Of a DNA stretch of 64,000 bases, positions 35,869 to 38,679 are shown piece after piece. A model generated the notes under the pieces. It saw only the letters and a list, made by a program, of their open reading frames with translations. It ran no database searches and was not told the origin of the DNA. This DNA is from Holophagae bacterium. GTDB taxonomy: Bacteria > Acidobacteriota > Thermoanaerobaculia > Thermoanaerobaculales > Thermoanaerobaculaceae. The stretch spans positions 1-64,000 of the forward strand of contig JAAYVZ010000141.1 in NCBI GenBank assembly GCA_012516935.1, in the 5' to 3' direction. A program made the translations under genes and the position numbers. The first letter of the stretch is position 1. Each line of letters begins with the position of its first letter.

Positions 35869-37281
<1,413 letters not shown>

Positions 37282-37635
37282 ATCACCCTCTCCCAACATG
37301 GCCGTGTTCCCCCGATTCCGCCACCTTGGACGCACTACCGCCGGTGGCGAGACGGTGTACCCCTGGCCGAGACCGCAAAGTGGCGGCGTGTCCCGGCTTC
37401 GACGGCCGTCGACCCGCGCCGGGCGCTCGTCGCCGTCGACGCGGGCCGCGGTACCGCCGAAGCACTCTGAACCCTCGGCGAGTCGTGCCACGACGTACCG
37501 AGGCTTCTCACGGATCGGGCGCCCCGAGCCAAACGTGCAGCACTACGGCGGACACGGCAGCCTCTGGCGCCGAGAAGCGGCAGGGAAGAAGCCGGCCACC
37601 TGCCCGGCCCGAGTCGAACCGGTATACTCGCCGGG
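37282..37635. other. divergent intergenic region rtcB/selD
   Basis: This 354-base stretch holds no supported gene. It must carry both divergent promoters; the only clear element is TATACT at 37623 before selD. Confidence 0.5.
37623..37628 (+). promoter_or_regulatory. candidate leaderless -10 box of selD
   Basis: TATACT ends 7 bases before the ATG at 37636, and no Shine-Dalgarno site is present. The -35 region is weak. Confidence 0.4.
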
Positions 37636-38679
37636 ATGACGCGCGAGGAGATCCTCAAGCTCACGCACCTCGTATCCTGCGCCGGCTGAGCCTCCAAGCT
37701 GGGTCCGGCGGACCTGCACGCGGTGCTCGAAAAGCTGCCGGAGGTGAGCGATCCCCGGCTGCTGCTGGGGACCGGCACGTTCGACGACGGCGCGGTGCTG
37801 CAGCTCTCCGACGAGCTGGCGCTCGTGCAGTCGGTCGACTTCTTCCCGCCGATCGTCGACTCTCCTTTCGACTTCGGCCGCATCGCCGCGACCAACGCCC
37901 TTTCCGACCTCTATGCGATGGGTGCTGACCCGCTGTGCGCGATGGTGGTGTGCTCCTTTCCGATTGCCACTTTGCCGCTGGAGGTGCTGCGCCAGATCCT
38001 GGCCGGCGGGCTCGCCGTGCTCGTGGCCGAGGGCGTGGTACCGATGGGCGGCCATACGGTCAAGGGGCCCGAGCTCACGTACGGGCTCGCCGTCACCGGC
38101 ACGGTACACCCCCAACGAGTCCTCACCAACGCTGGTGCGCGGCCAGGCGACGTCCTCGTCCTCACCAAGCCGATCGGCACCGGGGTGCTCTCCACCGCGC
38201 TCAAACGAGAGCTGCTCGACGCTGGCATGGCCCACACGCTCGTCGAGACGATGGCGGCGACCAACCGTCACGCCTCTCGCGCCTGTCAGAAAGTCGGGGT
38301 GCACGCTCTCACGGACGTGACCGGGTTCGGCTTGCTGGGTCACGCCCTCGAGCTCGCGGCAGCCTCGCGTGTCGCGCTGGAGATCGAGGCTGCCGCCGTG
38401 CCGCTCCTGCCCGGCGCGCTCGAGGCGGTCCTCGCCGGCGCGGTACCGGGCGGGTTGGTCGCCAACCGTGCCTGGGCCGCAGACAAGGTCCGATCGGTCG
38501 GCGTCGACGATTCGACGGTGCAGCTCCTGTGCGACCCACAGACCTCAGGGGGCCTGCTGGCGGCCGTGCCTGGGCCAAACGTCGCCGAGCTCGTGGCTGC
38601 GTGTGCAACGAGCGGTGTCAGCGCCTGCGTGATCGGCCGCGCGGTAGAAGGCGACCCCGGCACCGCGGTGGTCCTCTGA
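37636..38679 (+). CDS. selD: selenide, water dikinase SelD, itself a selenoprotein (UGA at codon 18)
   Basis: SelD makes selenophosphate, the selenium donor for selenocysteine tRNA. From ATG 37636 the frame reads LVSCAG-UGA-ASKLGP: the UGA (37687-37689) sits exactly where other SelD proteins have the catalytic Cys or Sec, before the conserved Lys. Reading it as Sec gives 347 residues, the usual length. Downstream GTGTFDDGAVLQL, YAMGADPLCAM and GGHTVKGPELTYGL are intact. A prediction that stops at UGA would start at GTG 37723 and lose the active site. A hairpin follows the UGA. Confidence 0.93.
37700..37716 (+). other. candidate bacterial SECIS stem-loop in selD
   Basis: TGGGTCC (37700-37706) and GGACCTG (37710-37716) pair around a GGC loop, starting 10 bases after the UGA. 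Position and a G-containing apical loop fit bacterial SECIS elements recognised by SelB. Confidence 0.5.

Follow-up and report, generated by a model that had tools for sequence, protein, structure and literature searches.

A predicted UGA-encoded selenocysteine in the active site of SelD from a Holophagae bacterium

SelD with selenocysteine (Sec) in place of cysteine has long been known, and surveys rank it as the second most widespread selenoprotein of prokaryotes (PMC4561486, PMC1794560). Of the prokaryotic SelD genes detected, 19% carry Sec, always at the position equivalent to codon 18 of the gene described here (PMC4561486). Bacterial SECIS hairpins have been described by a model with a loop of 3-9 nt, a G in the first two loop positions, a stem of 4-16 bp, a spacing of 16-37 nt and a minimum free energy (MFE) of -7.5 kcal/mol or lower (PMC13188914). 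Selenoproteins have also been reported earlier from the Acidobacteriota, as Occallatibacter riparius has three known selenoprotein genes (PMC12013277). The selD discussed below resembles the Sec-containing bacterial SelD in the placement of its predicted Sec at the single known position, in the SECIS within the coding sequence directly downstream and in its presence in a Sec-decoding genome. Nothing of substance differs between them; the hairpin sequence is lineage-specific here.

The gene (selD, selenide, water dikinase or selenophosphate synthetase) lies at 37636-38679 on the forward strand of the window, the whole stretch of 64,000 nucleotides analysed from contig JAAYVZ010000141.1 (assembly GCA_012516935.1). 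On translation, this is a single open frame, except for a TGA at 37687-37689, which is codon 18; the terminal stop, at 38677-38679, is also TGA. The read-through product has 347 amino acids, including Sec18. It matches the curated family profile TIGR00476 over its whole length with 371.1 bits (cut-off 125) and NF002098 with 343.7 bits (cut-off 299), and both the AIRS and AIRS_C domains are found in it by domain search. The nearest solved structure is that of a selenide, water dikinase, 3u0o (2.8e-73), aligned over residues 4-346. From these known families, the protein is inferred to have selenophosphate synthetase activity. The original prediction, that a TGA at 37687 interrupts an otherwise standard SelD frame, is thus borne out by the translation and by the TIGR00476 score.

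The interrupting codon is located at the catalytic position, as had been proposed. Codon 18 corresponds to the catalytic Cys in the alignment with 3u0o, and Lys21 (37696-37698, forward strand) supplies the partner Lys in the C/U-x-x-K motif of the active site, within the N-terminal loop; both residues line up with 3u0o and with the homologues aligned here, in which the Lys is conserved. Compared with this Cys-type SelD, the family and the length are alike, and the difference lies in the catalytic residue, which is Cys in 3u0o and a predicted Sec (UGA) here. The flanks read SCAG-U-ASKLGP. The SCAG named in the original prediction is therefore in place, and so is its SKLGP, except that the latter begins one Ala after the U.

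Immediately downstream of the UGA, a predicted SECIS hairpin is found at 37698-37717 on the forward strand, with a core fold of -10.4 kcal/mol. Its stem, GGGUCC/GGACCU, is formed by 37701-37706 pairing with 37710-37715, an uninterrupted 6 bp with one G-U pair. The apical loop is GGC (37707-37709), the U at 37700 is unpaired, and two more pairs are present beneath it; the core sequence is GCUGGGUCC-GGC-GGACCUGC. The hairpin starts 9-13 nt past the UGA, close to the 10 bases that had been suggested, and the distance from the UGA to the loop is 17 nt. The 3-nt loop with its G, the 6-bp stem, the 17-nt spacing and the folding energy all fall within the published model (PMC13188914), and no difference from it was found.

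The hairpin is under synonymous selection. When the fold around the UGA was examined as earlier proposed, the outcome depended on the length taken. Long stretches were unexceptional: folds of 44-55 nt had no extra stability over shuffled sequences (z of -0.25 and -0.51, in a window of 69% GC), and a 39-nt stretch was equalled by 1096 of 5000 synonymous recodings. The core, on the other hand, was exceptionally stable, as only 12 of 3000 recodings folded equally well at 24 nt and 19 of 3000 at 27 nt. The four core codons, GGT CCG GCG GAC, do not vary among the 14 family sequences. Of 79 further degenerate codons whose amino acid is constant in these sequences, only 1 is invariant; these counts come from an alignment made without gaps around the TGA, in which later codons are possibly misregistered.

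Among 73 distinct UGA homologues, the position of the best hairpin varies between lineages. A G in the first two loop positions was nevertheless present in 71 of the 73, against a mean of 36 and a maximum of 47 in 200 synonymous recodings, and the mean stem score was 17.7, falling to 11.8 (sd 0.5) after recoding. The Cys homologues had no clear excess of the loop G (14 of 33, against 11.5 when recoded). Since the excess is seen in the UGA homologues but not in the Cys ones, the hairpin goes with the UGA. When the MFE of each homologue over 39 nt was compared with that of its synonymous recodings, the result was weak, with a mean z of -1.0 for the UGA group and -0.3 for the Cys group.

In an assembly broken into 293 contigs, a lone in-frame TGA could also be a nonsense mutation or a sequencing error, in which case selD would be a pseudogene. 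The comparison with relatives speaks decisively on this point. The family comparison covered 59 relatives along with the source genome, and a separate scan of named genomes served for the wider one. The identical TGA occurs in a genome of the same genus and in 12 others of the family, at SelD identities of 57-77%, so that all 14 genus and family orthologues of the UGA-type SelD have it at codon 18; their consensus is SCAG, TCAG or ACAG, then U, then A(S/A)KLGPADL. In the named genomes, codon 18 is TGA in 61 of 80 homologues and TGC or TGT in the other 19, and the closest named record, at 70% identity, is from an Acidobacteria MAG, which makes Acidobacteriota the probable source of the window. 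The alignment with SelD families thus places a conserved in-frame UGA at the very position where other SelDs hold Cys. This conservation refutes a mutation or an error. Apart from codon 18 the frame is undamaged, and synonymous selection acts on the hairpin; the probability of a pseudogene is accordingly negligible. A chance origin of the TGA and the hairpin is likewise excluded because both are conserved in relatives. Another possibility is that translation begins at GTG 37723 and yields a shorter enzyme of the AIRS family. No standard ORF in this frame is longer than the one from this start, which is also the start listed by ordinary gene calling; as anticipated, such calling loses 29 residues and the active site with them. 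However, the protein sequence of residues 1-29, which contains the U-x-x-K active site, is conserved among the relatives, and the SECIS would be left without a role, which makes such a start scarcely believable.

It may also be asked whether the UGA is decoded as something other than Sec, either as Cys by an opal-decoding tRNA or as Trp or Gly under a changed code. The many homologues with Cys at this position lend the idea some appeal. Against it stands the machinery that profile searches, run family by family, recovered from the genome. The selA gene (451 bits, contig C229) has lost its N-terminus to a contig end, selB (contig C239) is an uninterrupted frame of 638 aa with 296.7 bits, or 324.5 with a C-terminal piece, and selC (contig C183) is a canonical tRNA-Sec whose anticodon is UCA, with a score of 72 bits where the gathering threshold is 47. 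Absence of these three genes had been named in advance as the finding that would count against a Sec reading, and all three are present. The sub-threshold matches to the tRNA-Sec model that were examined proved to be tRNA-Ser, tRNA-Leu and tRNA-Glu genes, none of which has a UCA anticodon. Furthermore, selD itself terminates at a TGA, and a non-Sec decoding would make no sense of a SECIS specific to the UGA homologues. Such a decoding is therefore highly implausible.

The best explanation, with a probability of about 0.97, is that selD encodes a SelD with a UGA-encoded selenocysteine in its active site at codon 18, along with a SECIS, the insertion of Sec itself being judged from known families. 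The selenoprotein proposed at the outset is supported by selA, selB and selC, by the conservation of the TGA at the catalytic position and by a SECIS that agrees with the model. SelD would make selenophosphate from selenide and ATP with selenocysteine as its catalytic residue. SelB-GTP carrying Sec-tRNA(Sec) would bind the hairpin just 3' of the UGA, and the bound complex would deliver Sec at codon 18, so that the ribosome avoids the stop. SelA, in turn, would use selenophosphate for the synthesis of Sec-tRNA; SelD would hence be needed for its own production. It might even be imagined that read-through at codon 18 acts as a selenium-sensitive autoregulatory switch, with full SelD made only when selenophosphate is already available. 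The lack of any variation in the four SECIS core codons within the family makes this conceivable, but it is improbable.

The formate dehydrogenase alpha subunit would be another user of the Sec system in the source genome. Its gene, fdhA (locus L128, 1501-3504; G000:C130:5319-7322), has exactly one in-frame TGA, at locus position 1894. This codon is at the Sec site, in the context HCARL-U-HSSTVAG, and is followed on its 3' side by a G-loop hairpin of its own with the loop GGUCU. The selenouridine synthase YbbB, sought in the genome as a second user of selenophosphate, was not found. Scanned by composition for more read-through TGA codons, the window gave nine candidates, several with a start codon soon after the TGA, like ordinary gene ends. 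An Rfam scan of the window returned tRNAs only. Upstream of selD, in divergent orientation, is an RtcB-family RNA ligase gene (35869-37491, reverse strand).

The selD finding holds up and helps annotation, yet it is ordinary, as Sec-containing SelD is well known. Its value is that standard gene calling removes 29 residues and the active site from an apparently functional gene. It supports the use of selenocysteine in an Acidobacteriota-related lineage and adds no new mechanism.

One genome of the UGA-type family (G006) has only a distant Cys-type SelD (L032, G006:C137:122-1123; motif YTHGLGCACKL, 52% identity) and retains selA and tRNA-Sec, which suggests that the Sec-type selD was replaced there by a Cys gene of outside origin. 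Three genomes (G003, G045 and G054) have two selD each, one with the TGA and the other an uninterrupted frame of roughly 750 codons. In the sister family f2 (order-level relatives, G017-G033), SelD is of the Cys type, with the motif YGGCGAKL. Nearly all of its genomes have selA and tRNA-Sec; thus, the use of Sec is retained in this family without a Sec-containing SelD.
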